Part shown: positions 1 through 25,063 of the stretch, one piece after another | Layout of the letters: each line of letters opens with the position of its first letter | Numbering within the stretch: the first letter of the stretch is position 1 | Assembly (NCBI RefSeq): GCF_000499385.1 | Contig: NW_013651986.1 | Span: 24,074-88,073, forward strand | Origin: Eimeria necatrix | Taxonomy: Eukaryota > Apicomplexa > Conoidasida > Eucoccidiorida > Eimeriidae | Direction of reading: 5' to 3' | DNA: 64,000 nucleotides | Notes under the pieces: generated by a model | Told to the model about the DNA's origin: nothing | The model's database searches: none | The model's input: the letters and a program-made list of their open reading frames with translations, nothing else | Position numbers and translations under genes: made by a program

Positions 1-3000
1 ATCAAGCAAGGACTGGGCAGCCTGTCGACGGAGGGACAGGCTTTGTATGGGCCAGTACTTGTATTTCCTTTTGCCACGCTATTTTTAACAACGCTTTTGG
101 TGGTCAGACGCAGTAGTCGACAGTCGCACATATATTCGTTGCTGCAAAGAGTGTGAGCGTTGGGAGCCTGAAGGAGCGAAAATACCAGGGAACGCTGGAG
201 GAGTTACTAGTAGGAAATGTGGCTTCGTGACATTCATTCTGGAAACAGGGAGTACGACTTATTGGCAGGCTCACACGAGTGCCCATGGAAAACTATTTTT
301 CACAGGAAGCACCACGGAGGGCTCTCACTTTGCGAAGAGCATGGACAGGCTGCTGTGTTTACGCAGTGCAAAGGGCGACGCTTGAAGAATGCGCTGCAAC
401 CCTTTTTCTGCAGACACCGGATGCCACGACGCTTTCACGTGTCAAAATATGGGTTCGCTGAAGTGTCTTTGCTCAGTGCTTCAAATGCCTTTTTGCAAAG
501 TAGCAAAAAGGGGTAAATTTCTTTGTCCGGGAAAAACCTAGTGGATGTGGTCAGCTTGAGCATTACCTTGAAATCATCTTTATGTAGTTCGGAGAGAACG
601 CAGGCTAAATGCTATCAGTGGCTCGTTGCTTCTGTTTTGCGCACAAAAGTTTCTCACAACTGTTAAGCTTGCTTTCCTGGAGTAAGGTTTGCGGGATGGA
701 TGACAAACGTAGCAACTGGAGTGCTGCTGGTCGTGTCTGTATCGAGTGGAAACAGTTCCCTTCGAAATAGGCTGCGCAAGCCAGTCTTTGTAAAAGGATG
801 TCACAATGTTTCATTTTCAGTAGGATACAGTGGTAGACTTTGCTTTGGACAGCTTCGGGATCGCATGAGATGCGGCTCACAACCAAGACTGCCTGAATGG
901 ACTCATGTGATATAGAGAGTAGGCCATCTTCTGGAAAATTGAAACGAGCCCAAGAGGTCAACAGCGAGATAATATTCTTGAAGCTAACTTTAGCAAGCAT
1001 TTATGTTTGTTTTCGCTCCAAAAGTGTTACGTGTTGGCTCTAGGCAGGAGGGATTCGTGAGCGGTGGTTGTTGAAGTGCACTTGACTGCGATATGGGGCA
1101 TGTGGAAAATGTATTGATTATGACCGCACAGCACTTTGTGTGTACAAGATTGTACGTCTGCGCACTCAAAGAGGTAGCAACACATCATTTTGAACGTATC
1201 CGTCAGTAATAGCGCAGTACTGTTGGACCGATTAACCATAGTGGGGCAAAATGTCGATACATTTGATTCTATTGATACTTTTCTTAGGAACCTCCGACGT
1301 TTCTTAGAAAGCATTAGATCATATTTCAGTGGAGGCAAAGGCTACGGCAGATGCTCTCGTTACAGAAAGTACGCAGGATACACTTGCCATTGACTAATTG
1401 GGAGCACACACGCACAAGTTTGGCACAGGTTCAGGATGCCCACTGGCCTCTTTGCGGCAACATGTGAGCTTTCACGATTCTCCAGTGCTTTATTTTTCAT
1501 CAGACTGAAGCTGAGGTGTATCCTCCTTGGTTTGCACCCATCGTCTTCTTGCATGTAGTCCTGAGCCAGCATCTTTTGCCGAGCTTATATGGCTTTTCGT
1601 GCGAAACGGACGAGCTGAGCACAGCACAACTGCCAGCTGACCGAAGGCATGAAGCCATTTACAAGCCGTCCTGCCCAGATTTGGTATCACGAGTAGGCTG
1701 TGAGCTTCTTCGCTAGTTGTTCTTCCATACAGGGCTCCTTTACGATATACGAATGATCAGTTTATTTACGAAGCCTTTGCAGAAGAACGAGTCAAAGTGT
1801 ATTAAATGACACAGTAGGCAGAGGGAGTTTTCACATGGGCTATGCCAAAAGCCATAATAAAATCATAGGAAAGCTCATACAACGTCGGACGCTCATGCAG
1901 CTCCAGTTGCTGGATGCGCCCAATCAGGCCGTGAGTACCGAAGCGATTCAAAACGTGCACACAAAGCCAATCACCTAAATTAGAGGCCCACAGCTAATCT
2001 GTTTTTTCTACAAGAGATTCATTGACGTGTAGTTTCCGGTATAACGGGCTTTGCTCACGGCACGTCTTGAGCACGGGGAGCAGGGTTGCTAATAGGAGAG
2101 TTCATTTCCTCGCAGGTGGTAAGATTCCCTGAAATGCATTTCAGCTCTCGATATTTGAAAGCAGCCTTTTCTTAGAAGTAGCCAAGGTAGGGGAAGGGCG
2201 TGGTTGTCTCTCTTGGCAAGGGCAGAAGGAAAGAACCAGAAAAACCTGCGTGGAGATGCTTCCGTTATATTTATTCTGGCCAAAGATCGTGAGTGGCTGG
2301 CGAAGAGGCACAGAACAAGTACATTCATGGCATAGCTACGCCTCCAGAATTACTCGCATCTATATTTTGAGCCTTCATATATAGTGACCTTTCGATAGAA
2401 GCACCACGAAATTTGGAGCTGCAGCAAGGTAACGATGCAGATTTCATTTGCTCAGCTTTTTCACTGTTTGCTTTCTGCAAGTAGAGGAGTAGGCATTCCA
2501 ATATGGGGAGACAAAACTATGCATTGTTACAGTTTGTGCGTCGGCTGTTTGCACAAATTCGTTGGCTACACAGTAAATTGGCTCGTCAGCTGCCCATAGG
2601 AAACACGCAAAGTGGTCATCGGCTAAAACAGGCCATACTTTGTTGTGTGCACTTCGCGAAGCTTTAAGGTGGCTTTGGTCGCCGAGTTGACGTAGTATTC
2701 TATCTCTACTCGTGCGAGCTCGCGGTCGTTGTGAGCTCAGCTAGTACGCCCATGCTGAAAGTGCCTCCATGCTGACAGCATTTACAGTGGCACTGAATAG
2801 TGGAAGTCAGCGTTAAGAACAATGCGAGTTAATCGAGCTGTCGCCTGCACCTTCGGGTTGCGCTGGGCTTGAAGGTCATGAATTAGGGGCAGGAAATGCT
2901 GTAGAGTTGGGTCTATTCCGTTGCAAGATTCATCTGTCATATTTGATAGCAACTTCAGCAAAAAAGAGAATGCAAGAGCTTACACTAGCTGATAATGCAC

Positions 3001-6000
3001 CGAGAGACAATAATCCGCTAGAGTCATTTCCTACACTCGACAGACTTACCGTGATATTAATTTTGAAGGCGGCTTTGCCTGCTCTTGGTGCAACACTTGT
3101 TCACAGCAAATCATGGTGAAAGGGCTAAAACAAGAAGCATGAACGCTACGCACCTTGAATGTTTTGGGCTATATGCGCGTCTGCTGGACTGCAGCAGTAT
3201 AACGAATTGAAGCTATTAGGCAGAAGAAGACCGGCCACGACGTTTTTGCTCTTATGGACATGCACAGAAAAGCTTAAAGGCCTCAGTTGTGTTTTTCCGT
3301 AGTGCTCGCTCCAGCGTAAGCTTCGACTGTTTCTCCGCAGCGGCAGAGTTCCTTAGCTGGTCGCTTATTTCTGGGACTCCTGAAACGCGATACTACTCAA
3401 CTTGTTGTCCGCCGCGTAAGCCAGCCAGCCACTGTTCTGTTTTCTTTTAGTATCCAGTTGTGATCTGTCAAAGCCGCGTCAGAAACGCGGTATTGAGGTT
3501 GGCAGTGACTAAGTCCTCCGCATGTTGGGGATTATGACAGTTTTTCACACTTGGTGTATGCTGTGGCCCTGTTTAAAGATAAGCCGCACTGAAGAAAGTT
3601 TGAGACGAGTTTTTCCAGGGAAATGGTTGTCCCTGCTTTGTAACTAACGTGTGAGGAGTGTAGCACTAGATTTTGTGACTACTGAGGTCACATAGTATAA
3701 TACCAAGGTGACTGCCACGAAACCCTGTGTTGGGTCCATATCACATTTGACGCATAGCAGTGAACAGGCCATGCCGTACGCAAGGTTATTCATTCTCAAA
3801 TATGCCCTCAGAGAGTCCGTGCTGGCAGAAGATATGCTTTTACTTCCACATGGTGATGAGCTACCGCACGAATGCTTCTAGTTTTGAGTTTGCCAAAAAT
3901 AGAAATTTTAGTGGCTCTGCGTTTTTAAGGCCAAAGCTGTGCCAACACTGAATCAAAGTCACGAGAATCATTTACTCAAGACGGTGAGTGTCCACTGCTT
4001 TTCAATTTTGCGTTTTGGTTTATGTGTGAAGCCTGTGCAGATATGATAGATGTTTTTTCTCCCACATCGTGATGCACTACCTCACCTTACTTGGAATTCG
4101 GCAAGAAAGACGTTTATTGGATTAGCCTTGAAGCAAAACGATTGACGGTATTGTCTGCAACATGTGCTTAAGGGAGTGGGTTTTCTGCTCGTTTGCTGCT
4201 GCCTTATTTGATATCAGTATTTCCTGCTGATACGGGCATGCAGCGTAATGGGGTTGACAATGCTTTGCGACATATTTTGAACCAGCTTAATTGACTCACA
4301 TAATACTGCGCAGAAAGAGCGGCCATACCTGGTTGCCTCCGTACATCATTGCTGGCAGCGCTCACCACGGTCTGTGCTTGGCATCTCTCAGTCAGAAATT
4401 TGACTTTCCACGAAAGTTGGATATTAGATCTACGTGGCTCGAAGCGTCTGCTGCTTTTTGCACAGATTGTAAGGAAGCAAACACAGCTGACTGGACGTTT
4501 TAGAAAATGCACACGGACAACGTACTTTACATGCACAGTGGATATTCACACTGCGGTTCACATGCTGCGGCACCCCTGATCTTTGCAGAGGCTTTCTCGG
4601 GCATGCTCCACAGCAGTATCCTTCCAGGAGCGCATTTATCAAAGCATGTACGTTTTCGTGCGACTTAGTCGCAATTTTCGCTTTTAACTTACTGCTTTAT
4701 CGCTCCTTAGAGACCGAAGCCTTGTGGCCTGGAAGGATTAACCAAAAGTGCGAAAAAAAGAGATATTACACGCGCCGATTCGAGGAAACATTGTGAGAAT
4801 ATTACGCTGAATTTCCATGTGACGGGCCATTTATCTTGCCATAGCCTGTAAGATACATAAACAGAGAGACTGTGCTTCACAATGAACCTTCTATCCCCAA
4901 ATAGTGATACGCAAAGGGCGTTTCTGAAACTCGAAAGTTGGGTTTATCATCTTTGGGCCTGCGCGCAGCAAGTACGTCTTAAATTTCCGACAATATTGCA
5001 TAGCTGTTTGCAAAACAGAAGTAGATACGCATTTGTTCCAGGTGGGTCAAGTGCGTCCCGTTGCGCATGACGCCGTCAAGGGTGACAAGACCTAACCGCT
5101 GGGATTTTATTTGTCACTGCCGTGTGAATATTAAATTTAGCCACACACCAGCACCCCTCTATCTTTTTCTGGTGAAAGGATGTACGCTATCTTTCTACAT
5201 ACAAAGTATATTTGCACTCTGAAGGCAAATGCATAATGGACGAGTTAAAGGTATCGTGAATGCCCGGTATCTAGAATAGTTGAGTGCTTCTATGACGCGT
5301 CTTGAAGCACTATGCCTGTAATCGTGACGGCAAAGCCGTTAATTCACTGCGTGCTGTTGAGGAGCCATTGGCAAGGAGTACAGCTAAAACCTTTTCCCTG
5401 TGGACTGCCCAGGTCGTGAGCCGCTGACTGCATTATTTATTGTGTAGTGCTAATCACTAACAACTTGCGGGTGAAACAAGGACTTTTTCCACAGACACCG
5501 GCAGTGCTGGGCTACAAGTGCTACCGTTGCGGAAGCTGCGACCTGGAAAGGGGCTTCTTGTTACCTAAAGATGCGGCGATCCCATCACTTTGTCTCAGTC
5601 CTATGATATCAACCATTTTGCAAGCCTATGCCGTAGTTTTCGGGTCGTGCAGCAAGTGTGTTCATGTATTTTGCATTCATACTACTTACCTTTACTGAGA
5701 GAAGCTTGAAATCTACAGGAAGACGCTCCAAGGTAGCAAAAGCTAGCAGCGGATGGGCATTTCTCTCGCATACGTGCTACGCAAACAATAACTTGGTGAA
5801 CGGAACTGTGCGTAGAACACCTGAAATAACTCATCTGAGATCTATGGTTTGCGTCTCCAGAACGTACGTTAAAGCGTTACTGTCCGCTCACGTTTTCAGC
5901 TAGAATTTATTGTTATCCAAAAGCTATATAGCTTTGGGCTTCTAGAAACCTGTGAGCGGCAGGCCATCGTGATGATGCTTTTCTGGAACAATTCGCCACC

Positions 6001-9000
6001 AGGAAATGTATGTGGCTTCCAAAAAACAGATTGTGTGCTTCATCCAACAAACGTTATGCAAACCGCTCGAATTGGCACAGTTTGTGCGGCGATTGCTCTG
6101 CCATATATGTTTTCTGCATGATCAGCACTAACTAGGGGTTTTGAAAAGTGCAGTGGGTTAACTGCGCGTTTAGACGCATAACATAACTGCATGGGCGATG
6201 GAGAATGCTGCGTCGCTCTAGCTTCTGTGTTTAGAAAGCCGCAATGATGTGATTGGCTTCTGCGCAACACGTCGGGCATCGTGGATTTTAAACACAGTCT
6301 CGGCATTACTTCAGGCTGTACGTTTGTTTGGAGTCGTGGAGCAATATGGCACTGCGACTTCAACGAGGCTGCGTAGACTTCGAGGCATCAGGTTAATGCA
6401 TACCCGAAAGAGCCATTAAGTCTCTTCGCAAAACACAGATTGTACGCTAGATTCCATTTGTTGTGGATTTTCGCCTTTTTGTACCGGAGTCTACCGGGAA
6501 TGCAGCAACGCCGTTTCTCGCCGTTCCCACTGTGTATGAAGAGTGGTAAATGCCGTGCTCCCAATGCAACTTTCATTGGAGGCATTTGTGGAGTTGCTAC
6601 AGAGGGAAGTACCTACACGCGGATAAAACTGGTTTTTTCGCATGTTTGAGGCGTATCTGGCAGGACCGTGTGTCGACCACGCAGAAAGTATGAATTAGCT
6701 CTCTGCGTCTGGTGGGCTACCACACCTACGCTGCATGACTCGTTTCGCCTCAGCCATGTGCTCAGCTTGCGCGTCTTCTCATTTGGTAGGTTTCGGATCA
6801 AATGTATCTGTGCTTGCCTTGATGGGACCAAACAAAGAACGTAAAATCTTGTTCCTGCTGGATGAGCAAACGGACTTCGTGTTGCGGATGTGCATAACAC
6901 AGCTAGTGAGAACATAAATTCCCAAACGACGCTCTAGTGTTCCATCACAAAACTAAACCTCTGGAAAGCAATGCTTTCACACAATCGCTTTTTTGTAGAG
7001 CAGTGGTACGGATTTTGGCCGCAGCCCTAAACTCCTCCGAAATTCTCATATCTTGCTGCGTCGAGCGTGGACGGTCCTTGCTAAGGAGTTCTCCGGTCTT
7101 GCTCATCACCTGTGGTAATGTTAGGTAACGTTACGTTCAGGCTGTAGGTCTCCTGCAGGCTTCGCCTGGCATTCTTGTTACTCTCGAGAGCCACTATGAA
7201 GGGGTTGACAAGGACATGCACAAGGCCAGCGGAGCTCGACTGTAGCATGGTTATGAGTTGTGAGGGTGCGAAATTGCCTTTTGTGAGTTTCCATGCGTCT
7301 TGATATCCGAATCTATGTATTGCATGTGCATCACTATAAACGTCGCTAAAACAGGCATCGAAAAAATATTTGATTATTTTGGCAGATGAAGCTAGCAGCA
7401 GCGTTGGTGCAGGAATAACGGCATACTCGAACACAGTCGGTGAGACACTTTCCCAGCAAATGGTATGTCCAATTTGATGCTTTCGTACCAACGTACCGTT
7501 TCGCACAAGCAGCAGTCTATTTTTAAATGGGACCCTCACAGCTCGTATGTCCACGCGACTACTGCGGCAGCTTTTTTGTCTGTCCCTCGCAATAGAAAAA
7601 GCGGGGAACAAATCTTGCCTGGACACTTCAAAATGTGTGTTCATTGTTTTTCTTTCTAGGATGTACTAAAAATTTTGGTAGAGTGCGCTGTGCAGCCACT
7701 CTGACTCAAAGATGTCCTTGCACCAAACGTAGTGAGGAAATCACCACTTTTTAGAGGATTGTGAATGGCTGGCGATAGAATCGTCGTACAGGGGCACACT
7801 CATGCGTGATTATGGAGGAGGGTGCAAATTTTATGAGTGCAGCAAGTATGCGCGACTTTGAAGAGGGCGTGAAGTGCACCGAGAGTCTTACGTCGGCTGA
7901 TTGTGGAGCCCTACAGATGGCTGCGTGATACAAGATGCTCGTTAACTAGCTTGCAAGTATAGTTTTTTTTCTATTCATTTGCCACAGGATCTGCTTCTGG
8001 AGCTTTTTAACTGGCAGAAAGCTTCGCACAAGTGCGGCAGGACACATTCGGGTCAATAGAAGAAATGATATTCCCTGATGCACCGACTCAATGGCATATA
8101 CACTAACAGGCAGTGTGTTTTAGTCTCTATTTGCAGCCTGGTCTTAATTGCATCTCCAGGCAACTCCTGGAGTGAGTTTTATCGGCCTGACGACTGGACA
8201 CTTCGAAATCACCATATCCGCAACGGAGGACCCAAGAAAGACCAAGATGGCAAATGACCGGAAAAGCCGGCATCACTTTTTCTCCACTGTGATGTTTTGT
8301 GCAGAGAGTAGGCTTAAGCCCTAGGGAGGCAAAGAATAGCCACACAGTGTGGACTTCAGCCGCAATGCTGCATCACTTTTTTGTAAGATTTGTGTGGGAA
8401 CATTACGGGCAAAAGGGGTGTGGGCATACACAGAACTGAATCCATGCATTTGAAATGTGAACCACTGAAGGTTTTGGCATTGTCAATATCTTGTGCAGAA
8501 CGCGTGCTTCTCCCTCGCTGTGAACGTAGGTGGTGCGTTTTTTTCTAGTCACTTCTTCGTACCCCTGACAGCATACCTGCAGGTGCACCCACCGTGCTTC
8601 AAGTGAAGGAAGCGGGAAATTTACTTTCAGCTTAGTAAAAGAGCATGAAAAAACTATGCCGCTACTGGACAGCGTGAATAGTTCACTCTTTCTGCCGCAG
8701 AAGGCCTGGCCAAATCGAGTTATGGGTCAAGGAGGGTCTTTAAGCTGTATGGCGTGGCTACGCCTAATCTGCTGATGCAGAACGTGCGTTTTATCCAGAA
8801 ATTCGACATCGCGGTTTTAATTGTCAGTTTCGAACCGTAAAAGCTCGTGTTGTGCTGCAGGTCGGCCGCAGTTGCTGCTATCAACGCTTGGACCTAAGCC
8901 AATAATTTTGAACGAGTGCGTATGAGGCTAGCTTGTGGGGCAACGTGGTGCTTGGCACAGGAAGTAGGTAGTCGCCGTTTTCCTTAAAGGTACATGAGAT

Positions 9001-11166
9001 CCGTTGTTTTCATTGGGGCACTTGAAACTTGAGTGAAGCTTTGGGATGCTGTACAATGCGTGAAGCACTGAAGGTAAACCTATTTTCCCGTGACAAGCTT
9101 GAGATAGGCTCACGTAATGCAGTCCGCTGAAGTCGCCACACACTGGCAATGCCAAATAATAGCGCCCTTTATCATATGACGCTGCAACTGTGCCATATAA
9201 CTCTTACGTATAGCTCTGCAGTAGTGCCTTGCCTCGAATTCCTAGACGTGCCAGATGCAGATTTTTCTGTTTTGCGTGAGCGTGTATCCAGCAGTTGCTG
9301 TGCATGCCTTCCCAGGATAATATGCTAGTAATCTGAAGTGCAGTTGCGAACCTCTTAATCAAACTGACTGTTTGCGAAAGTGGAGTCTATAGGCGTCGGG
9401 TTCCTGGCTGCTCGCAAGAGTGAGTGGTGGATAGTGGATAAGTGTCTTAAGGTGCATCTTCTTCCAAAACACTGCATTCACTTGAATTTTTTCCAATGCG
9501 CTTAAATCGTCCATACTGCTAAATTTCACAGTGCAGACGCGCAATTGCTAGTGGCCGATAAGCTGGTGCAAGCACCAAGAAGTCGACGCCAACTGCCAGT
9601 TAATGCTCAAGCAGAAGAAAGGGAGGCGTAGCTGCATGATTTGAAATCTATGGAGGCGAAGCACTGGCTCTTTTACAGAGGGTACGAAGGTGATTTGGGG
9701 GGAAGTGACGCGCGGTAAAGCAGCACATGTTTTCGTACTTGAAATGGGCTCATGGATTCATGTTGATCAACCAAGCCGATCCAGACTGTGTCAGTTGCTG
9801 TGGTGGGCTAGCTAAGGGATTTCTGGTGTTGAAGTGGTGTGCATTTTCTGGCTCAGCAAGTAAGTGCTTGACTGTTTTTTGTTGCCAAGAGCAGTTTTTG
9901 GTCACGATGGTGACTGCGGGCAGTCCAAGGGAAGCTGTAACTGAAGCGTATGAAGATGGCATGTTTCACTGGCACTGCGCTTGCACCCGCCATGTAAATA
10001 ACGGGATGCCAAGCGAGTGAAACACTGCAGCAGTAATGGGACACCTTCAAAAGGGCGCAAGCGCTGCAGAGGGGCTTCAGCGTGAGTTCTCTGTGAACTC
10101 TTGGCAGCTTCACGTACTGCGTGTGTTATGTTACGCAAATTTTGAGTGCGCATAGACTTCAAATACGCACGCTAATTGAATGGTGAGCATTTAGCTCATC
10201 TGCGACACATTGCTGAAGAGATACGCTTTGTGTAAAGCGGCAAGTGTCATGCTGGTGTCAAAGCGCCACTCATACGGCATTCAGTTATTTTAACCGTGTG
10301 CAAGGATGACTAAGAGGATCTGTGGCAAAGCTTAACTTCATTACAGCTAGTGCGTTTGCAGATTACTAAGCTGAGTCACGTGGTTTTCTCAGAGCTACGA
10401 GAGGGCGGCCCTTTACGAACTCTGCAATGCTTGCCGGCTCCGTCCAGTGGATTCCCAGCGTACGCCATCGGCGTCACTAAGGAACTAGATCATTATCATT
10501 TGTTGAAAAGCTTTTACTGTTCCAGCTAGAACTGGTCTTGCTTGCAGTGGAAATCCAACTATAGCCTTCATGTCTGGCTTGGGGCTGAAGGCGATAGGGA
10601 AATTTTGTGAGGCTCATTGCGGCGTACGAATTTTTAGCAACTGGCAAAGAATTGCGAATTCAAACGTATTTTGAGTACAGGTCGTACGTTTCGGACGAAT
10701 AACCGCGCAATTACTTTTTGTGGACGCCTTCTCTCTTTCAATGGTTTCAGACAAGCTGCAGGTTAGTCGCATCATTCTGCCTGTTGTCGGACTATCTCAG
10801 GCCGTACGTTCACGAAAGGCTGCACTGTTTCCCCCCTCAGAAAGAGGTTTCTATACTTGTGCTGTCCCTGCCTCCTGTTCAATGCGCAGAGGCACCTGTG
10901 CCCTACCAGACTGTCAGAATGCATATTTGTATGCCCAACCTGTGCAGCTTCAGAAATGCCCAGCGCCGATTCTGTGATCCCTGCATTGAATGCTGCAATG
11001 TCTGCTTTTGACTATCGGATGTGGTTACGATATGGGTCAGATGGTGATATCTGCCCATATTTATAAAATATTATGAATGCACCGAAGCAGTCTACCACTG
11101 CATGTCTAAAATTGCAGACCAGATAATTTAGAAAAACGAGCACAGTCTCAGGGCGAAAGTGAGCTC

Positions 11167-11350: not shown

Positions 11351-14300
11351 ATGGCTCTGTTTGGTGTACCTGTAATTTCTACATTCCAGGTTGGTGTTGT
11401 TTTAATCTGCCAGCGGCTGCCAGTAAAGCTTTCAGTCGAGCTCAATGCTGCTTAGCTACCGCAAACTTAACGTATTGTCGTGGTTATGCACAAATTTTAT
11501 GTAAAGTGTGTTGCGCTGCACGGACATGGTCGGCGTCTCCGCTTTCTAAACATGCTTGACTGTCAACACCACAAGTGAGCTTGTTTTTCCTCAGCCAGTA
11601 TGTTTAGAAATGCTTCTCAGAGAGAACGTTTCCCTACGCTAAATAAAAGGAGACACTTACCAGTCATTGAAGCGCATTGAGAAATCTTGTTAATGAAAAA
11701 CGACATCATCAACACATCACAAACATATTCAGGTAAAGAATAACATTTTGAAGTAGGATTTTGATCAGACTGCATCCAAACCAGAGCTACCGGATCAGCT
11801 GTATCTGATTTTGCGGGTTGAAAGGGCGTAGTATATACGAGAACGTTGTTCTTGAGTTTATTCATTAGCATATATTCATTATAACTTCTTCAGCAAGTTA
11901 CTGATGTCACAGTGAAGCTGCTTGCTTTCTCAGCCAGTGACGGGCATATATGCATTTTGGCTTAGGTGTGTGTGCGAATACCGGTAATTATTCAGGAAGT
12001 ATGTTGCAGCTGGCAGTGCTTATTGCAGTGCGGCTCAGCTAGTTCTATATTCGGCGGCGTCGCCAACATCATGGCTCAAGACGACTACTGGTAGAAACTC
12101 CTAACTGCAAGGTACGACTTAACCCTCACATCATCTTACAAGAAACGCTGTGCGATCCAGTCAGTTCGTCACCTGTGCTGCATGCAAGTGGCCGGATGCG
12201 TGCCCTTCCAGTGCAAGCAAACTGCAATAATATCTAGAAGTCTATTAAAAAAGACAAGGATTACACGTCTAAAGGCAGGACCGTGAGATAGGCTATGCGT
12301 TGCCCAGCAGCGCTTAACTGCTATGAAAAATCGCTCACTAGGACGTGCGTTTTCTTCGAAAGCCCACTTTGCGTTGCTGTCCGTACCGGTGGTTGGCAAG
12401 CAGCTGGTGCTCACGACGCTCCTTTTGTATGTGTGCCGTCAGCTTGAAGAGGTAATGCTGTAGGGCTTAAGCTGCGTCCAATCTACCATTGCTATCATCA
12501 GCTCACAGCCGGATGCAAAGCCAAGAATTTTTCTCCTCACACAGTTTGTCCAATTAAGTCGGGAGAAAGGTGTATAAATGCTGAATATCTAGATACAAAT
12601 GAGCATTGTGTACTCCGATCATTTAGAATCAACAGCTTTGTCAGGATATGATGAACAGTGGGATGATCACACCGTTAGAATTGCGCACATTATGATACTC
12701 GCTGCATTATTGCCTTGGTACAGAGCTACAACGTCTGTAAACAGAGCATGTTGCGTAATTTGACTTCTCTGGCTATTGCTAGACAAAATGGACGAACATT
12801 TCCTACGAACTGTAATACCGTCAGGGAAAAGCAGCTTATATGAAACCTAAAACGTTACCTAAAGGCGTTCCAAAAATGGGGCGTGGCGGTGAACAGTTAC
12901 TGCGTGTTGCCAAAAGATCTGCGCGTAGATGTTTGGCCATGGGAGCAGCAAGTATGATAATGACTGGTCTGCACTCTGCATATTGCCAAGCTTGGATATT
13001 TTCGACTAGCCTTCAAAGCATCAAAAGCTCATTTGCACTCTTTGGGGGATACCAGGCGGCGTGCAAAGCAAAAGAAATTCTGCATTTGAGGCGTGTGGTT
13101 CCAAAGGGAAGGAGTTATTTCTTTGATCGAGAGCCGGACGTCATCGCCAATTGGGACTCTTTTGGTTCTGGCTTGTGTAAACGCAACAGGAGACGTTTTA
13201 TAATGCTTGACAAGCAATTAGGAATTCAACGGAGTTTCTGGCTATCCCAACACTGAATTGGGGCCTTTATTCAGGATATGGCGATTTGAATGTCGCTGGT
13301 GTTTGACAGTCACTCGTTCTGCTAATCAGGAAGTAGGATTATTCTTGGAACCCTGTTGCTAGTGACTTCCCACTCTTTCGTACAGGCTGGATACCGTTAA
13401 AGTTTACAGTCAAGGGAAAGCTGCACAGAGCGCAGCTGGGATAGCAAATTTTAGGAGCCACTCAAACTCTCCGGGTAGAGTGGAGTTTGGAAACATCAAA
13501 TCTTATTGTCCGTTGATAGGAAAACGAAGCCGTCGGTTTTCTTGTTGTAATTCTGGGTGTCGCATTAGCCGCAGTAGTTGTATTTTTCTCGGCGCACTCA
13601 GAGAGTGAGTCATCTTCTGGCTGTTCTCTAGCCGTCTTTTTTTTCTGCTTAACGCAGGGCTGGCGGATTTTGCGTACTAGAGTGGCTTGGAGTGCCTATT
13701 TTACTTTCCCAGTGCCAGCCCGCCCCGCCAGGTGGCTGATGCTGAAGGCTACCTGTATAGCACGTCTGACACATGCCATCAACTTGCTACACTGGAAATT
13801 GTGTGGGCTCGAGGCGGGACAAGTGACGTTTTTGTGAATGAGAGAAACGCATCTGCTATATGCATTCAGCAGTCATGACCGCAGCTTGTACGTCTTACGT
13901 TTGCTCTTCGTTTGCCTCTCGACAGAAAATCTCTGATGGCTGTGCTCGTATAAGCCGGGTTTCAAGTTCGGCAAAGATTCCGAACGATTTTGTGCAAATT
14001 TGTGCACTTTCTATATCATTCGATGTGAAAGGTTCGCCTAGCAGTATCTCAATTGACGGGCAGATTGAGTGCCTAGTTTTTGGAGAAGCCTGCCTATCAA
14101 ACACTCTTGCGAAGAGTGAATTTAACCATTCGATGAAAAGACAGTTGAGCAAGCGCAAATTATGCATGCTGCGTTGAGCGCTGAATGGCATACCACTAAT
14201 CAACACACAAGTGATCGCCAGGCGAAAGTTCTCGCAATAGATTGCCGTAAGTTGTATAATTAGGGAACTGGTTCATTCATTGGATACGACATTAGCTCAG

Positions 14301-15261
14301 AGCGCTGCTTGAAGCCTTTATTAAGGGTGGCGTAGTCTTCACATGCAGGGCTTTTAAAGTCCATATTATCTGCTTTCGTCAGAAAGTGCGTTTAGTATGA
14401 TGAGATTAAGCAAATGGTTCTTCAAAAATGATCTGGTGCGATCTAAGCGCCTGTTCCTTGGCCAGACCAACGGCGCATTGCAAACTTCGCATGTACGTTT
14501 GCCCACCACAGGTGCTGTTCAAATGTGACCGGACTCAAACTTTTTGAAACTCTTATGAGCTCTTCATACCTTGTTGATACTTCATAACGATTTGACATGG
14601 GGCTTCTTGCTGTGGGGCAAGCTGTTCAGATCTGCGTCTCCGGGATTTTTCAGGCCGTGAGTCAACTGCTGCCAGTCTCAGCCGCTTTCCTACCTGTTGC
14701 CGACTGGGGATGCAGGCAGGAACGAGCTTCTGTCTGCTTCACAGATTTACGAGGAGGCTTCTTTATTCCAGCATACATGCAAATTATAGGAAGTTCCCCT
14801 GTTATACGTGAGATGGATTAAATAGATAGAGGACGATAAGCGCGGTCTGTTTCCTATCGAATTGTTACAATCATGGTCACAGCTAGTATGTGCCGCAGGC
14901 GTATCTTATTCGGGACTAGAATAGATTAGTCTAGTCGCAGGAATGTCCCAGAATCAGCGACCCGGTGTGTGAGAATAAGCGCGTGGGCATTGACATGATG
15001 AAGAAGGCAAGGGCTACACGCGGAGCCTTCCAGTTGCCAACGCGTATGTGTAGAAATGTCGACGGTATTCAAACCAGGATGTTCGTCATGACCCTCATAT
15101 GGGCAAGCTTAGCAGCACGTGTACGGATCTCTTTTGCGTAGTTATTCCCAGGCCGCGTCATTCTTGCCTCTATAATGATCTTTTTTCGTCAGTAGGCTCT
15201 AGACAGGCTGAGAAATCAGCATGTGCTCGAGAAGCCACGGAGCGAAAAGGCCGAAGCGTTG

Positions 15262-15301
15262 GCTGCTGAGACCACCCCTGCAGGAGTGGTCTCGAAGCAG
15301 C
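15262..15301. repeat. Small imperfect inverted repeat
   Basis: The arms GCTGCT-GAGACCAC and GTGGTCTC-GA-AGCAGC flank a ten-base centre that contains CCTGCAGG. The arms pair perfectly over eight bases and then again after a two-base bulge. It could form a hairpin in DNA or RNA. No poly-T terminator or gene lies next to it. Confidence 0.55.
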
Positions 15302-16941
15302 GTTGCGCACTAGCCTCGCAGCTGCATCGAATGTTTCAACGTTGTTCTCCAGATAGTGCGTTTTGCATTTGTGTGTTTGCGCTGAAGAAGATATAAACGT
15401 GCGGAGTCGCATTCCTATCTAGGGAGCGCGTCTGTGGTTTTAATAACCCGCTCCAACTTCCATTTTGCGTGCCAGCGTCGACGACATCTGCTTGCTAAAG
15501 GCCTGGAGGCCGTGATCCAGTTACAGAATTCTGAAATGTAAGCATCTGAGCACGAGGGGAAACAGTTTCCGGTGGTTAGGGTATCTTTTTCCTGCTCGTC
15601 ACATTCTATGGCTGTTCGTGAATATCTGATCATGCATTTGAACAGGTGGCAAGTTACAATCCGGAACTCGCGGCTGTAAAGGAGCTCGGTTCGAAACTGC
15701 CGTGCATGTGGTTTGGCAAACGGCTGCCTGCGCTCCACGTACAGAGGCGCAAAGGCCTTTGCCAACGGAATACAGAGAGGGGAGGTACTGAAGAACAAAG
15801 GTGGGTCGTTGGCTTGTTCATTTGGACGCCCGCTCAAGAAATCACAACGAGGTGGAGCCCTTTTGCATAATCTTGCATTAAAAAGCTTGTGGGTTACAGC
15901 ACACGTCTCTGCAATCTTGGTCAACCGCAGTAATTACTTTCGATTGCAGTCTGGTTGTGTCGCATCCTTAGGGCTTATTTGACTGACGAAAAATGATGTT
16001 GCTTTCCGATGTACGCAAATGATGGAGCCAGATGCTAGGGTAGCAGTCGAGGTGGCGCATTGTACTTCATTCAAAGTATTTACTTTCTCACAGCATGTGC
16101 TTCTACCCCGAAACCTGCACTTGCTCATATCTGGCTTTCATATTCTGTCCTTTTAAGCTCGGGCAAGGCTTACGCACACTGAGGAGAAATGCTTTTGCTC
16201 GCACTTCATGAGTTCCAGGCAACGTTGAAATTGCATTTCAGCCACTGCCGATGTGCCCCGAACAATGCCGTCGCCTTAACCAAGTGCTCAGGTACTTACT
16301 CAATCGTTACTGTTGTCTTAAATGGTGCAACCTGAAGGCTGATCATTGCATATGGGGCCCTTAAACGGTGGCAGTGTAAAAGCTGTCAAATTACTAACAG
16401 GACGTTAGTCTCACTGCTCAGTGCACTCATATCACAAGAGCTTTCCGCGTTTGCATAATCTGCTATCCCGCTTATATCGTACTCATTCAATCAGGATTTT
16501 TGACTAGGCACATAGCAACCATTTTCGAGCAGGCTGCAGAAAATGGCAAAGTGCATCTCGTGTTCCGCCCCCTAGGGTGTCTAGGGGAGTGGTTCTTCGG
16601 GTGCTTCTCTAGGCGTGATCCCGTCATATACCAATTGGTACTGGATTAAACTAAGGATGTGCGCTTTTATATTCAAGACTAGTCGCTGTAGTCCTCTTAT
16701 ACGGTGTAGCTTGCCACCACATGTTGCTTATTGTTAGGTAGAATCGCACGTTTCAATGCATTATTGTGGTCGGTTCGAAAGGGCATCTTCTAGATTGGCA
16801 CTTAGGAGCGTCTTAACCGAAAGCTCTTCACTGATAGGTCATTTTGGGAGCCTGAAACTGAGTAAGAGGGCCGTGTTTGCCTTTGCTCTTATATGTTTGA
16901 TCCTTGAAGAGCTGCGCTTTTCTGCAAAAGGAAGTGAGCTT

Positions 16942-16987
16942 GGTGTTTCACTAGCGTAGGGTGTGGTGTTTCACTAGCGTAGGATGT
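16942..16987. repeat. 23-bp tandem duplication
   Basis: Two adjacent copies of a 23-base unit start at 16942 and 16965 and differ at one base. Each copy contains CACTAG-C-GTAGG, an acceptor-like AG one base from a donor-like GT, so the unit resembles the motif series around it but with a one-base spacer. Confidence 0.85.
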
Positions 16988-17171
16988 GTACAGCAAGGCC
17001 GTCAATTCTGAAAAACACGGAACGATTCTTCTTCCATTTGCGCAGATAATTTGGCTGGACCACTGGCTTTACAACAATGGGCACCCACCACACGCTCATC
17101 TTGCTTGAAAGTTTTGAACACAGATCGTATGTTTGCAATGCATTTGTTCACCATAGATGTGCCTACGCTGT

Positions 17172-17229
17172 GCATATGGCAAGTAAACGTGCTATGCCTT
17201 GCATATGGCAAGTAAACGTGCTATGCCTT
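17172..17229. repeat. Perfect 29-bp tandem duplication
   Basis: Bases 17172-17200 and 17201-17229 are identical over 29 positions, beginning TGCATATGGCAAGTAAACGT. Perfect identity suggests a recent slippage or duplication event. No gene or regulatory role is evident. Confidence 0.9.
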
Positions 17230-20200
17230 GGATAAAAAGGCAAGCTGACGTGCCGCACAGGTGTGTCTCCACGACGACACAGCCTTTTGTCTTCCAATAA
17301 AAGGAGGTGAGTTCACTTCTACTTCTCCAGGACGTGCAGGTTGCTTCGTGAAAAGCGATCTAGGCACAAAGTCATTCACTTTTTTTTAGAGAGCTTCCTG
17401 CCTACGAACTCGAGCAGAAAGTATGTCTTAAGGGGCGGATTCTTTTTTCTTACGAGCTAAGACAGTGCACACGGCCATATTTGCTAGGTTTACTTGAGAG
17501 CTTGTGTCGATTCCTACAAGACGTTCTTTTCCCGCTGAACTTCAATCGAGTTGTCCTGTGTGAACCGGCGCAGAAATCTTACTGAAACAGGTTCTTTTCG
17601 GGTAGTTCCTCTGTCTGCAGGCTGCTGAAGGACTAATGCATACTTGCCACCATGGTGAGCTTTGCGTTGCTGCTTTGTCATGCTCTAGTCAGAACAGTGC
17701 TGCGGTACGTTGATCAAAGCAAGTATGTCGGGGGATTGCCTTTACTGAATTATCTTCTGTTTTAGTCTGCAGATGTGGCGTGCCGAAGGGCGCCAAGCCT
17801 GTACATCTGAGCTGCAGCAGGGCTAGCTGGTGGCGCAGCCAAAAGCAGGCCCTGTGGCGGCTCAACTTTCTCAGAGAATATTTCTTGGCAGCAACACATG
17901 CCAGCGCGGGGCCGTTAACTGTCTCCTAAAGCGCGTTTAAGTTTTCAAAATTTACCCAAAGAGTTTTAAAAACGGGAAAAGCTGCGTGTAATCAATATAA
18001 ACAGCAAGTGTGACTTAATTTTACTGCTAGACATTACTTCTTGTTATCACGCTTGCCAGTTTATGAGCCCGATCAAAAGTTGCTGCATGCAAGACTCAGT
18101 TGCATCCGTTGTGAATTTTCGTCTTATGAGCAGTTTTGTCGTAGGGCTTGTGCGAAGTGCAGAACTGACAACTGCTACGAAATAGTGAAAAGCACAAAGG
18201 AGGATATCAGGCGGACTTTAGCACAGTAGATGTGCCAAACTCTTGTTGCTGGTTCTTGCAGCAAGTGAGAATCTAAGTGATGGACATGCACTACTTTGTT
18301 TATTCATCTGAAGTAGATTTGAGCTTTGAAAAACTAACGGTTCGCTTCGTGACACCCATTGAAACTCCAAGCAGTCTTGCGGAATTTCGCAAGGGTTTTC
18401 ATTTTTTAGGTTGTACGTTGTTTACTGCAGAGGCTAGAACATCACCTTCGTGTGGTATGTCCAACTCCTGAACCTTGAGGATCATCTTACCGTCTTAGCA
18501 CATTTTGCACTCAAGGTAGCAATTTCTGGAGTTGCAGAGAATACGCATAGGTACAGACGCTTTAATCACTTTGCTAGCCAGAGAAATAATGACTTCATAT
18601 GGTCTTCATGCACTGGAACATTCATGCCGGAGGAAATGCTAACCAAACGCCTGGTTGAAGTGTGTAAGGTTTCGTTATTCACCCATGCTGGAAGTTGAAT
18701 ATTACGTACCGCGCCTCCTTTCCTGAAGGAGCAAAAATCCTGTCTGCAGCAGCGGGTGGCTTTTGCAGCTTATTTAGGGGCAGCCTGCTGTTTACACGGC
18801 ACTCCGCTCGTCGTGATCGAGACTTGCATGCAAAGGGCAAATTGTTTAGGCGAGTGGACGTCCCCGTGTTGCCTACCGGTTGTTGCACTGGCTTTTGTAC
18901 GCCGTCTCCGATGCCAGCAGACGCAGTGACTCTGCATGGCGCGGCACTCTTCGGAGATATGCGCGACTCTGTACTTCCTCGTGACTGAGCTACAGGCTGT
19001 AAGTATTCACAGTAGCAAATGCTTCGCAAAGTGCACTTCATTCATTTTACCGCCAAATTCTGGTTCCCGTTCTACTGTTTAGGAGCAAAATACACTTGCC
19101 TGTAGTCAAACGGTTTATTAAGCTTGCCACTTACCATTTTGCCCTAATGCGTTGCTAACAAATCATTGGCAGGAATGACATGCTGAATTTATGGCACTTT
19201 TGCACATTCACTCGGTGTTTATGTAGAGCAGTGATGCCAAAATTTTATCCCGGGAACAGAGGGTGAGCGCTAGCTTTTACCAATATGTCTGCATGAAATG
19301 GGAGCTTAGCGCAAGAACTACCGAGAACGTTCTGTCAATGAATTGAAAACGGTTGCTGCCAAAGGCATGAAGCAGGCTACTGCCAGCTGCTCTCCTATCG
19401 ACAAAATATAGATCGTACGTTCGTTGCTTCGTGAGGCTTGCACAAAGTATTTGGCAATGCTCCGGGGCACCCACCGAAGGGCCGTGACACTGCGCAAAAG
19501 TGCCATTCAGCCATGTTTCGAATTGCCATTGCATTCTGGTTTGGTCACAGATTGTGCGTGTTCTTGGTCGTCTCCACAGAGCGCCAAATAATCGCCGTGG
19601 TTTGTGCTTCTATTTGTGATTGCTTTGTTCTCTAGAAGAATTGAGTCGTAAAATCGCACTATATGTAGGAGGTGAGTCAATGTGTGTGTTTGTTTGCATA
19701 TTGCATCAGCAAACAGGCAAGTGCAGGGGCAGCTGAGTTCTTTTGGTAACTAAATTTTGCGTGTCCTTCCCTTGTGTAATCCTAACATTAGGACGTGCGT
19801 TACAGGTTGAATGTACTTAAACGTCCAAAAGGGAGAGTATTCTTTTTCCACTACCAGCATTCTTGGGACGTAGGGCATCAGTGGGAATCATGCAGATGCC
19901 GATAGCGCTGCGTGAAGGCGCATCTTTAGTTTCATCTCTAAGACTAGATCACCGTACGCCCAGGTCGTGCGTACTTTACACAGGAACAGGCAGCGATCCT
20001 AGTCAAGAAACAGCAGCTCTCAGAGAAAGGTTGCATTCATGGTGCCTTTCAAAGTCTCTTACGAGATCGCGAAACGCTTGGAGTTGAGCGAATTTCATAT
20101 TGGGCAATCGGCTGAGAGTTAGCTTACGGCGGCTTTCCTTTAGTTAGCGCTTCAAGCAGTCTGAACAGAGAAACGGAACAGCGCGTATCATCTTGCAGAA

Positions 20201-23200
20201 TGTGCGTTTCACCCGTATTCGCATGTGCTGTAGTTGCACCCAGAGGCTGTATATATAGTGCAGTCGGCAAACTACAGCAGGCTTGTCTGCTGCACAGTCT
20301 ATCCTGTCTAGGGGGTACAGCGAGCGCACTCTGCGTTCCTGCCTTTCTATGCAAGTATACGCCGTCTACTTTTTGTGGCGCCATCTTTAATACCCAAATC
20401 ACAACTTTCCCAGGGTGCGGAAATATCTGGAAAGCGGTTAGATGCCTTTGGAGCTTGTTTGAACCACAGCCCTCTATAGAAGGGCCATTGTTGGTGGCTT
20501 CCAGACGTTCCTTATTTTGAGGGCAGAAAGTGAGTAGCAAATAGCCAAAGATCACATTCGGCATACTCCATTACTTCGTGTCATTACTGAAGTTTTGCCC
20601 AAAGTGATGCAGCAGATGTAAAGGGACTTTATCCAAAGCGAAATACCGACTAGCCTGTTCGCTCCTAAAAGATCGTGGGTATATAATTAAGCGTTTTGCA
20701 AACGAAGGCTACACGGCGAGCGTCTTGCTTTAGTGCGACGCATTGCGCAAAGTGTGGCTCGAACGTGAGCATGCTCAGGCTCAACAATATCGTCCCTCAA
20801 GATGGGCAAACGCACGTAACTGCGCGAAGTCGCACTAGAACTACCCACTGCGCTGGGTTTGCAAACTTTCGCACCGGCTTTATGCAACCACTTCAAAGTC
20901 CTACAGTGCTGAATTAGTATGCATTGCATTGGTGGAATTTCGCTCGCAAACTACGTAGAAGCCCAAGGGAGAAGACTTTGAAGGAGGCTTTTATTCGAAT
21001 TGTATCTCGGCGAAAGTTAAATGCTGGGGAGTCGTAGATACGGACAGAGGGATCAGCGCTATAAACTAGCATTGTGTGACTGCAAGGTGGCGTGCTTGAA
21101 AATGCTACTGCGTTGTCACGCCTTCACGGTATAGCCAATGCGCCGCAGGAGAAAATGCATCAAGTGTACTTTCTGCCTTGGCATGCCTCTTTAGTTGGCG
21201 TGGATGGTGTTTTTTCAATCCTTCCGTGTCCATAGCAAGTAAGTTTCTGCTAACTTCTATGTTGAGGTGCTGGCGCTGTTATTGTTATAGTAGGGCCCTG
21301 TGGCATTCTTAGCGTATTGCAGAACACCCATGCTACAAATAACGAATTTTTCCAACTCATACTCTTCATAGGTAGAAATTACGGGGCTCTGCTTTAGAGT
21401 GTGGCTGAGGCTACAGCTTCGGTGAGCGTTTTTTCAACACCTCGTGTTGTAAGGCTCAGCGTGTGGAAAATGCGATACTTTCAGTAAGACTGATTCGCTT
21501 CGTTTTGCGTGGTTATTCTTGGTTGCGATCCAGAAAGTGCGTGTGCATCACAATGGCGAGAATTGCAGAGGCTTGCAGATTCCCGTAGGCTACGTGCTCT
21601 GCTGCCTCTGTACATTGTAGTCTGTCCATGCTTTCTGTTTGCCGCACCAAGAATCACTTTCCCGCGTGCATGCAGTGCGCTGTGAGCATAGCTCTCCTTT
21701 ATATATCAAATGCCTGCCCTTGCGGATAATTTAGGCTTAGTGTCTGCCTGTCACGCTGCGGTGCGAACTTGTGTACGAGCTAATTCGCTGATGTACTGCA
21801 TTTACCACCAAGCCAGCCGGATTTATATTGTTATTTGTCATGTTTAGAAACGCCATTACGATTGCAAATCTCGTTTTCATGTTTTGCAGAGGCGTTACCT
21901 TGGGGACATTCAGCAGAGTGGCACATTGACGGCTGAATTATTTCGTAAGAGCGTACGTTTCCTCGCATTTTAGGCTGTGCTTCACGTCGGCAGCGCCGTC
22001 GGTATGAACAGTTTCTTATCTGGACGCCACGGACATTGCGCATTTTTGGCTTCTGTGGTCCACTTCATGCTAGGCTTGAGGTTCCTGAAGTACCCATTGC
22101 GCTGCAGTGCTCTGATCTCCTCAAGAAGTGCATTTTGCAAGCATATCTCCCATCTGTTTGTAGGTCGGTTTCTACCTGCAAGACATGCTTTTAATGACGC
22201 TTCAGATGCATTTGTGCCAGAGGGACCTCGTAAAACGTTTTGAATAAGATTAAGTCGGGCTAGCTCTTCAACAAGGGCATTAATATTAGCGGCACAAGGT
22301 CGTGGATGCCGAAGAAGGTGTAGCCACGATACAGAGTCCCTGGTGCTAATCGCCTGATACCTGAGCCTCTGAAGTTAGTTATACATTGTAAACATCGTGG
22401 CACTCGTAGGAGTCACAGTTGTCTTTTCAAGTTTGTTGGCACACAACTGCACGCACCAGCGCGGGACGCTCTTCATGCCTGTGTTACAGTTGGTACGGTG
22501 TTACTTCAGCAGACAGCATGCCACAGTCATTTTTTCCTCTTTTCAGGTTGTATACCCGAACGCTAAGTTACGCGACTCGTTCCTCGGTTTGTAGTGCGTT
22601 GTTTGACGAAGGCTTTATACATGTAGAAGCGCTTCGGGGATGCCCACTGCATGCTATAAATATAGTTCACGTGACCAGCTTGTAAGCCAACTCTCTCATC
22701 GCCTCGTCTTAGTTTGCATTCTTAGTGTGAAACGCAAGGAAAGCGGCGGTCCAGCCGTTTGCAGCCTTGAGCTACCAGCTGACTCCATAACATTTTTGTC
22801 GGCACGACAATTAGAAGTATATCTTGGGTGACTCTTGGCAGTGTGGCGGCATGTCCCCAGCCTTTGTTTCCGAATGATCAGCACTGGCCGCAACAGCTCC
22901 TTGCAGGCCATGCTGAGACAAGCAGCTGTAAAGCAAAGAATCTAAGTATTTTTTTCTCCAGAGAGTAAGCTAGTTGAACTTGACCTTAGCATACAGAAAA
23001 CGGCTGCGCATTGCTTCATCCCCCAAAGGTCTGGACAGTACGTGCCTCAACGGTCGTTCCACATATATTGCACTGCTGCTTACACGGGAGCAATGCCGTT
23101 GGACATCTAGCTGAGGGCATTCTAGTTTCACGGTTTGCATTGGCTGTTTTCTCACAATTTGCTTGCTCCTGCGCGTCTGTCTCATGCCATATACAGATTG

Positions 23201-25063
23201 TGGGTTGCTGTTCTGAGTCAACACCAAGTGGCCGTGAAACATCAGACTTTCCTTCATGTGCATCGCATGGGGGAAAGTCTGAACTCGTGAGCCTCGCTCC
23301 CTACACTTAAAAAGGCATGCTAAATGCAGATAGCAGTGCAGCTGTGGCCGCGTTGCTGACTCGCCTATTCTGTTCCAACATGAATAACGCTTGTAACTGT
23401 CGAACAGTACGCTGTGATCTTGCTGTATACTACTTCAATGGCAGCTCATTTTGGCTAAACTTTCCTGTGCATTGCCTGCGCCCATAGGCTTCATTAAGTG
23501 TAATACGCCAAGGCGTGGCATCTTCATAATTCGCTGCAAGCAAATATAAACTACGTGACAAGCATACTTTGAGCGCCGTTTTGTAGAGATACAAACGTGC
23601 TTCATCGGGAAGCCGTCCTCCTTCGTGCCCACCAGTGGTTCTTCGACGTGTGCATGCCAGGGGTTTTGATGAACAAGCTCTTAGTTTCCAGGACGAACTG
23701 GAATTGCATTGCATCTACATGCTACTTCACTGCTGATGTATTTTGTGTACGACGGATGCCAACGCGTAATCCGGGCTACCACCTGCTTCAGAGATGTGCT
23801 TTGGAGTCGACTTGTGCCTAATGCAAGAGCTCTGGCATTCCTCTCAGAAAGTGCGCACTCTCCATCTTTTGTTCTTAATTTTTGATGCAACACAACTGAA
23901 GTTCAAACGGATCTCTGTGTCTTGATGCAACGAAATATATGGATAAACGAAGCCACTTTGAGGTTTCATATAGGGGTTAAAACTGCGTCGACCACACTTC
24001 TCCTTTAGACTGAGCATCTCAGTGGGAAGAGACAAAGTTCCGGCCTCCACACACCAGAGTATGAGTGCATTTAAATATAGAGAGCGAAGGACACGCATTT
24101 TAGGCATTGTGGGCCAATAAACCATCGAAATGTGGGAGCGGTCGCTTCTGGGGCTTTCGAATGGTACACTAAACTCAGCCACAAGGGATGCATTCTCGTG
24201 ATTTTTTACGTTGTCCTTTCTTATGCCCGAGCCAAGTGTCGACGTTACGTTAGTTTGTACTCTACAAGCGCTACAAGAGCAGTGGAATTGTTGATTTGGT
24301 GATTCATCAAATGGTAAGCACGTCATGTACAAGTATCAAAGCGTGGAACACACTCCGTTTCCACATGATCTGTCGCCAAACATATAATTAAAGCTGCACT
24401 TGCAAGGGTCTTATCTCTGTCCTCAGAAAGTATGCGTTTTCTCTGTTATTGTTAAGGGGTTTGGGTTCAGCTCACATTACGAGATTCGCCCGAGTAAATT
24501 TGAACTGCTACATATCCCAGCATTTTAGACGCCCAAATATATTCGTTCAATAGATGTTACATTCATCATCATTTGTGATAATGCCTTCAAAGTTAGGACA
24601 CAATAACCAGAAAACGGAGGGGACACTTGTACTCTGGACTGCTAATGGCGTGCAGCCCGTGAGCTGGCTTTTCTCATCCATGCATCCCCCAGAAGTGGAA
24701 TATAAGTGGCACAGAGCAGCACCCAAGTATCTGCAGTGCTTGTCACAAGCGTTCAGTGACTGCGACCTTGTTAGTGGCCAAATGGAGAATGCTCGTCGCG
24801 ACGGTGATATAACGTAACCTACCACTGTGAAGCAAAAATGCCAAAATAACTGTAAAGAATAATCATCCTCATGCTAGTAATCGATAAGCAGAAAGCCAAA
24901 GCTTGGGGTCCATTAGTACTTTATTAAGGCTTTGGAGCAGGATCATACGCTTAGCATGGCCTCACCGGCGTTTCTCATGAAAATACAGTCAGTTGGTACG
25001 CAGCCTGAGTCCTTACTGTAAATGGTTAAAAAGTGCGGCAGATGCACCTCATGGTAGTGTAAT

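Follow-up and report, generated by a model that had tools for sequence, protein, structure and literature searches.

Why should one strand of a coccidian contig carry dozens of sites at which an apparent splice acceptor and an apparent splice donor stand exactly three bases apart? The question is raised by a 64,000-nucleotide (nt) stretch of the Eimeria necatrix genome (here called the window; assembly GCF_000499385.1, NW_013651986.1, positions 24074-88073 on C452, a contig of 88,073 bp in a genome of 44.0 Mb and 1148 contigs), for which a first-pass annotation had proposed a chain of 3-nt microexons or, alternatively, recursive splice points within a single giant intron or the joints of a tandem intron-like mobile repeat. 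We found that the oriented acceptor-N3-donor array in the window is real and was understated by that annotation. Judged from its sequence properties, the window very probably holds the 3' part of a gene in which a long run of single-codon exons lies between GT-AG introns.

In window positions 1-25001, the motif (A/C/T)AG-N(k)-GTRNG with k = 3 occurs 87 times on the plus strand and 6 times on the minus strand, compared with 4 to 14 (plus) and 5 to 13 (minus) occurrences at the other spacings of 0 to 15. For the longer version ending in GTRNGT, the counts at k = 3 are 49 (plus) and 0 (minus), compared with 0 to 4 at other spacings on either strand. The remainder of the window (25001-64000) is without excess at k = 3 (GTRNG, 11 plus and 14 minus; GTRNGT, 4 and 2). 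Among 300 dinucleotide-preserving shuffles, the k = 3 counts averaged 9.5 for GTRNG and 2.4 for GTRNGT, and the maxima of 19 and 8 were well below the observed 87 and 49. The numbers of sites first put forward, about 70 and 44, were thus under-counts, and the accompanying chance expectations of about 9 and 2 agree with the shuffle means. Counting also bore out the near-absence of sites from the minus strand, the restriction of the sharp peak to a spacing of three on the plus strand, and the lack of stop codons among the triplets (0 of 87).

The arrays were decoded with a weight matrix in which the triplet letters were ignored in scoring. The decoded C452 array runs from contig position 17076 (window position -6997) to window position 24658 and comprises 112 codons. 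It begins approximately 7 kb ahead of the window, which contains its larger, 3' part (1-24670, plus strand, by motif counts and decoding) with 84 codons, 79 followed by a GT donor and 5 by a GC donor. The array does lie where it had been placed (246-25001), and it proved to be wider. When exon lengths of 1 to 60 were permitted in a semi-Markov decoding, with a prior of 0.95 on length 3, 106 of the 107 C452 exons were 3 nt long and one was 23 nt long (score of 415, versus 5.5 for the reverse strand).

Similar arrays occur elsewhere in the genome. The strict motif CAG-N3-GTRCGTTT has 294 genome-wide matches, compared with 50 for N4 and 57 for N6, and one-strand arrays surround its matches on C200, C37, C798, C561, and several short contigs. 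With lengths up to 60 allowed under the same prior, all decoded exons were 3 nt long in C200 (85/85), C37 (58/58), C561 (135/135), and C798:75001-125000 (191/191; score for C798 of 598, versus 3.6 for the reverse strand). A prior-free spacing profile of 207,733 bp of array DNA contained 596 sites at k = 3, whereas the other spacings of 0 to 129 had a mean of 64 (standard deviation [SD], 12) and a maximum of 100, reached at k = 83; on the reverse strand of that DNA, there were 27 sites at k = 3 and a mean of 33 at other spacings. The loci other than C452 were picked because they held strict-motif matches or variants or adjoined them, and the frequency of arrays among these loci therefore does not represent the genome as a whole; the strand comparison, the spacing profile, and the stop counts are independent of locus choice, and the triplet letters were left out of the scoring. 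A clear one-strand array was absent in 7 of the 22 fetched loci (L001, L002, L003, L011, L012, L017, and L021), and the array of L004 was weak. Other exon lengths were considered as a second class, and none stands out as length 3 does. At a stricter score threshold, a spacing of 27 was found 45 times in 15 array targets (mean, 24; SD, 6.5; 3.3 SD above the mean), a surplus that could reflect chance or a rare class of 27-nt exons. The strict motif is matched by 43 of 591 decoded exons, and about 30 of its 240 excess matches resemble a 1.45-kb repeat described below; by extrapolation from these figures, the genome may contain about 2,900 single-codon exons, an estimate that can only be rough, given that the same motif had served to select the loci.

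The composition of the triplets indicates that they behave as codons. There were no stop codons among 732 triplets with a GT donor, compared with 21.2 expected and a minimum of 10 in 2000 column-preserving permutations. The 15 targets provided 591 triplets, again with 0 stops, compared with 17.4 expected from base use per position, and inclusion of the 15 triplets with a GC donor left the count at 0 of 747. Decoding of the reverse strand yielded 22 triplets, of which 3 were stops. The avoidance concerns TAA, TAG, and TGA, with TGG, TGT, TGC, TAT, and TAC all present. Amino acid frequencies deviated in the direction of average protein composition (r = 0.73, with general-knowledge values for the protein average; null mean, -0.06, and maximum of 300, 0.71), and the ordered triplets read as protein-like sequence, for example NRASYTLPWLHWHHREIVPFQIGHGRSSRWILVDRARPFRA-LAELAGKAGFPVAYDEMPE in C561, in which the dash denotes an interval of >420 nt. 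The peak at k = 3, the missing stops, and the putative first exons described below all favor the chain of 3-nt microexons among the three readings first offered.

Two other explanations can be weighed against these counts. Recursive (ratchet) splice sites are composite acceptor-donor elements without a spacer, through which a long noncoding stretch is removed stepwise. Oriented acceptor-donor composites distributed over 32 kb resemble such points, and the terminal exon that a gene should have was not found among the candidates considered. A giant intron removed in steps, with the 3-nt stretches skipped or lost, is nevertheless very unlikely: recursive sites are of the form AG|GT, yet k = 0 is represented by 32 sites in the array DNA, fewer than the mean of 64 at other spacings; the spacer here is exactly 3 nt long with codon properties; noncoding triplets would carry about 21 stops, and 0 were found; and phase-0 first exons appear to precede three of the arrays. 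Scarcely tenable is a two-part signal in DNA or RNA, its halves always 3 nt apart, that has no part in splicing, such as an array of protein-binding sites. A binding motif could likewise show strand bias and an exact spacing, but such a signal would hardly have a splice-site consensus on both sides (pyrimidine rich before the AG and U1-like GTRNGT after the triplet) or avoid exactly the three stop codons and tolerate their nearest neighbors.

The sites themselves resemble ordinary splice sites. Their alignment revealed an acceptor with C at -3, followed by three unconstrained bases and a donor in which T is favored at +6 to +8. The pyrimidine tract noted in the first-pass annotation is present but weak (T+C of 55-69% between -15 and -10 across 235 sites from this and other arrays). 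The donor is often GTRCGTTT (T at +7 in 49% and at +8 in 43%), and a G at +5 is required, as the k = 3 excess vanishes without it. The GT-AG ends, the donor matching U1, and the pyrimidine-rich stretch before the AG are all features of U2-type introns. CTAAC was found 24 times at -60 to -10, versus 9 times at -110 to -60 (CTAACT, 11 versus 1), a mild enrichment without a sharp position. Under the general pairing rule for U1 and donors, the 5' end of the best U1 gene (C18:101026), AAACTTACCTG, pairs with GTRNGTTT except for a C at +4; the favored T at +7 and +8 is complementary to the first two A's of that sequence. Three U1 genes (on C18, C76, and C912) were above the Rfam cutoff, and two U1-like genes were below it (C655:13892-14040, minus strand, and C1123:72901-73035, plus strand); variant U1 genes could be relevant to the array donors. 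The comparison of A at +4 with T at +7 revealed no clear association (P = 0.06). GC donors, considered as gap fillers, have no k = 3 excess overall (21 sites, versus 17 to 39 at other spacings), and the 15 codons with GC donors are therefore marked as weak. The introns are mostly 80 to 500 nt long, with medians of 140 to 230 nt in the five long arrays, similar to the median of 183 nt given for Eimeria falciformis (PMC4287421).

Some codons have been gained by duplication of an intron together with its codon. In C798 (L024, positions 101960-102880), eight 131-bp tandem units with one codon each, either CCA or GCA (Pro or Ala) between constant nearest bases, spell PAAAPAAP, an amino acid repeat made by duplicating intron-plus-codon units. 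In the array of C200:240001-258453 (L008 and L009), recent tandem copies measuring 147, 201, and 247 bp (identity, 99.6-100%) each add one to three codons. A 1.45-kb tandem repeat, with one acceptor-N3-donor site per unit and units approximately 85% alike, is found on five contigs (C135, C256, C285, C2, and C219; loci L010, L011, L012, L017, and L022); its variable triplets would encode K, M, E, Q, R, and A. In 19 copies of this repeat, the AG (19/19), the GTA (19/19), and GTTTGC at +5 to +10 are invariant, and only -4 (A, 14; G, 5) varies much in the nearest flank. The triplet is variable at position 1 (A, 11; G, 5; C, 3), position 2 (A, 9; T, 5; G, 4; C, 1), and position 3 (G, 16; A, 3). In 10 aligned units, which were cut at the motif and thus favor its invariance, 3.7% of the columns match the variability of the first and second triplet positions (majority of ≤0.6). 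This family may be a single very large gene or satellite that became fragmented in the assembly. Since both the 1.45-kb and the 131-bp units vary in the triplet and not in the nearest signals, the triplet seems, from these alignments, to evolve separately from the flanking introns.

These recent duplications in C798, C200, and the 1.45-kb family, each adding one or a few codons, together with the lack of detected homologs, make it conceivable, though clearly not the favored outcome, that the exons are real and the genes have grown by tandem intron-plus-codon duplication into young, lineage-specific proteins, perhaps of little function. Among the five arrays, however, only 12 of 498 neighboring intron pairs are detectably related, as are 0 of 1413 pairs more than eight introns apart (score of over 40), which means that most codons arose otherwise or that their introns have decayed beyond recognition. 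Duplicative growth is a hypothesis of origin and can hold alongside a gene of single-codon exons. The same comparison bears on an introner-like mobile repeat, inserted repeatedly with its joints giving the pattern. The 1.45-kb tandem repeats, each unit of which has a single joint, would be a precedent elsewhere in the genome, but with no similarity among distant introns and only two short tandem arrays detected by Tandem Repeats Finder in window positions 1-25001, this origin is highly improbable.

If the arrays belong to genes, then first exons should precede them. More than 6 kb of DNA lies ahead of the first decoded codon in C452, C37, and C798, and a candidate first exon was identified in all three. 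Each consists of an ATG, a hydrophobic start, a spacer, a second hydrophobic stretch, and basic residues, followed by a phase-0 donor; signal peptides and membrane helices were called from hydropathy windows only. The predicted first exon of C798 (donor at contig position 83914) encodes 111 amino acids and lies 278 nt ahead of the first decoded codon, that of C37 encodes 169 amino acids and lies 485 nt ahead, and that of C452 (donor at contig position 13935) encodes 108 amino acids. Pairs of an open reading frame (ORF) and a donor of that kind, in any phase, number 7 in 601 kb (both strands) under the stricter setting, including all three candidates, and 13 under the laxer one. The remaining seven targets have less than 1.5 kb ahead of the first decoded codon. 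The ratio of decoded codons to first-exon residues is 192:111 in C798, 112:108 in C452, and 59:169 in C37. No Pfam match was obtained for the three first exons. By hydropathy alone, the products are likely to be secreted or membrane-anchored parasite proteins. At window position 47144 (contig position 71217), outside any array, a further ORF likewise contains two hydrophobic stretches and ends at a phase-0 donor.

Several results weigh against a gene of single-codon exons. The C452 first exon lies 3.1 kb ahead of the first decoded codon; of the two hydropathy thresholds applied, it fell short of the first and passed the second. Five sparse arrays with 2.1 to 4.5 kb upstream (L010, L013, L018, L019, and L022) are without such a first exon, which slightly lowers our confidence. 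A search for a terminal exon with a stop codon returned many candidates, none of them convincing. In the C452 decoding, 14 of the 111 intervals exceed 420 nt, and some of these probably hide missed codons. The decoded peptides displayed no positive hydrophobic or helix periodicity at lags 1 to 11 (lag 5, z = -2.7). A U1 gene on C76 is without the expected 5' end, even with one mismatch allowed, and a trade-off between a codon-final G and T at +7 or +8 was not seen (T at +7 in 59% of sites after G and in 47% otherwise). Comparisons of the decoded peptides with PDB, Pfam, NCBIfam, and 5.8 billion proteins produced nothing significant, and no normally spliced paralog was found in the genome for the two arrays tried, C798 and C561, the one match being at chance level (E = 0.28). 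A PDB match to a type III glutamate-ammonia ligase (E = 0.019, then 0.037) was too weak and was not used. A similarity between the C561 and C200 peptides (TLPW...W.L.D; P = 0.07 locally and 0.02 end to end; BLASTP E = 0.20) is not claimed because it is weak and was picked after looking.

How might such exons be spliced? Exons shorter than about 50 nt are regarded as difficult substrates for the spliceosome. Because an exon of 3 nt leaves no room for simultaneous binding at its two ends, we infer that introns would be removed stepwise. The arrays would be transcribed, and the ordinary U2-type spliceosome would remove their introns one after another in the 5'-to-3' direction. Each acceptor would add one codon and so bring the following donor to 3 nt behind the end of the growing exon. 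U1 would recognize the donor through its intronic bases (GTRNG, frequently GTRCGTTT), leaving the codon free. Skipping of an exon would lose one residue and never shift the frame, which would explain why length 3 alone is tolerated in genes with about 100 or more exons.

By architecture, and not by shown descent, the nearest known kind of gene appears to be the schistosome micro-exon gene (MEG), of which the arrays would be a new, extreme variant. According to two accounts of schistosome and flatworm MEGs (PMC10526429 and PMC4350168), these genes have a signal peptide followed by a run of very small symmetric exons, encode secreted or membrane-anchored parasite proteins, and are hard for automatic annotation. 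The Eimeria arrays similarly are runs of consecutive very small symmetric exons, with a signal-peptide-like start (by hydropathy) in each of the three long arrays that have over 6 kb of DNA ahead of them. In contrast to MEG exons, which measure 6 to 81 bp in the text of PMC10526429 (3 to 81 in its abstract), mostly 15 bp, with 10 to 20 per gene, the arrays are enriched for length 3 alone, and 191 exons were decoded in one of them. They also differ in having a membrane-helix-like stretch near the first-exon end and in residing in a coccidian genome, whereas MEGs are said in PMC4350168 to appear restricted to platyhelminths.

Exons of 3 nt between introns are also known from Drosophila homothorax, where a CAG-exon-GTRAGT rule is described (PMC7392893), and from Drosophila troponin T, rodent NCAM, and RPS24. 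Such exons are single or few per gene and often alternative, unlike the array exons, which are consecutive and come by the hundred. The single-nucleotide exon of Fusarium CYP621A, confirmed by transcripts according to PMC12940212, is likewise too short for factors bound at both ends; there, one such exon per gene is described, and not an array. Searches of 5.39 million open full-text papers, a collection that leaves most subscription papers and bioRxiv preprints outside, found no single-codon exon arrays and no Eimeria microexons, and the papers listed for 3-nt exons, as judged by title and the start of the abstract, concern isolated exons or are irrelevant.

The predicted exons of the window, all on the plus strand and all taken from the decoding of the C452 array, are as follows. 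The first 5 kb contain AGT (Ser, 150-152), GGA (Gly, 249-251), AGA (Arg, 916-918), ATT (Ile, 1149-1151), AAA (Lys, 1366-1368), GCT (Ala, 1697-1699), GCC (Ala, 1928-1930), GTG (Val, 2116-2118), ATC (Ile, 2286-2288), TTT (Phe, 2533-2535), CTA (Leu, 2741-2743), ACG (Thr, 3981-3983), GGA (Gly, 4173-4175), ATT (Ile, 4466-4468), CAT (His, 4645-4647), and CAA (Gln, 4969-4971). These are followed, up to 10 kb, by GAT (Asp, 5179-5181), GTC (Val, 5413-5415), CAA (Gln, 5653-5655), AAC (Asn, 5861-5863), ATT (Ile, 6030-6032), TTT (Phe, 6081-6083), GCT (Ala, 6315-6317), ATT (Ile, 6439-6441), a possible CTT of the weak GC-donor class (Leu, 6766-6768), GCT (Ala, 7141-7143), CTC (Leu, 7542-7544), CAA (Gln, 7843-7845), GCA (Ala, 8110-8112), AGA (Arg, 8305-8307), GTG (Val, 8530-8532), AAC (Asn, 8781-8783), GAA (Glu, 8961-8963), CAA (Gln, 9857-9859), and a possible ATG, again of the GC-donor class (Met, 9956-9958).

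Between 10 and 15 kb, the decoding placed CTA (Leu, 10347-10349), GTC (Val, 10681-10683), GCC (Ala, 10801-10803), CCA (Pro, 11595-11597), GAA (Glu, 11996-11998), TCA (Ser, 12161-12163), GAC (Asp, 12342-12344), AGA (Arg, 13602-13604), CTT (Leu, 13885-13887), AAA (Lys, 14383-14385), GCC (Ala, 14654-14656), and CTA (Leu, 14883-14885). The next 5 kb hold GAT (Asp, 15078-15080), ATA (Ile, 15353-15355), two possible exons of the weak GC-donor class (GGA, Gly, 15423-15425, and GTG, Val, 15646-15648), CTT (Leu, 15886-15888), a weak CAT (His, 16094-16096), GAC (Asp, 16401-16403), GAT (Asp, 16656-16658), GAA (Glu, 16931-16933), ATC (Ile, 17124-17126), GAG (Glu, 17304-17306), AAA (Lys, 17418-17420), CAA (Gln, 17720-17722), a weak CAA (Gln, 18262-18264), GTT (Val, 18410-18412), TGT (Cys, 18661-18663), GCT (Ala, 18996-18998), AGG (Arg, 19260-19262), ATC (Ile, 19412-19414), ATT (Ile, 19551-19553), GAG (Glu, 19669-19671), GAC (Asp, 19792-19794), and GTC (Val, 19964-19966). 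The array then continues through AAT (Asn, 20199-20201), AAA (Lys, 20527-20529), ATC (Ile, 20672-20674), a possible GTG of the weak GC-donor class (Val, 21087-21089), CAA (Gln, 21236-21238), AAA (Lys, 21534-21536), AGC (Ser, 21950-21952), TTG (Leu, 22490-22492), CTT (Leu, 22679-22681), AGA (Arg, 22962-22964), ATT (Ile, 23197-23199), AAA (Lys, 23848-23850), and AAA (Lys, 24427-24429) to the last decoded exon, CCC (Pro, 24656-24658).

Farther along the window, four tRNA-Asn (GTT) genes lie within 1.2 kb (39896-41132), two on each strand. Telomere-like AAACCCT repeats are located inside the contig at window positions 52904-52946 and 61275-61303 and are surrounded by dense CAG/GCA repeats (49 to 62 kb).

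If the window is read correctly as part of a gene of single-codon exons, the smallest exon that keeps the reading frame would be used about 100 times and more in one gene, a situation that would force a strictly ordered model of splicing and show how far intron density can go. We consider it roughly an even call whether the arrays define a gene class in which exon equals codon, with thousands of single-codon exons encoding secreted or membrane proteins, strictly ordered splicing, growth by duplication of intron-plus-codon cassettes, and a cloud of variants per gene. Such genes would represent hidden secreted or membrane proteins of the parasite, which are unlikely to be visible to gene finders and short-read aligners.

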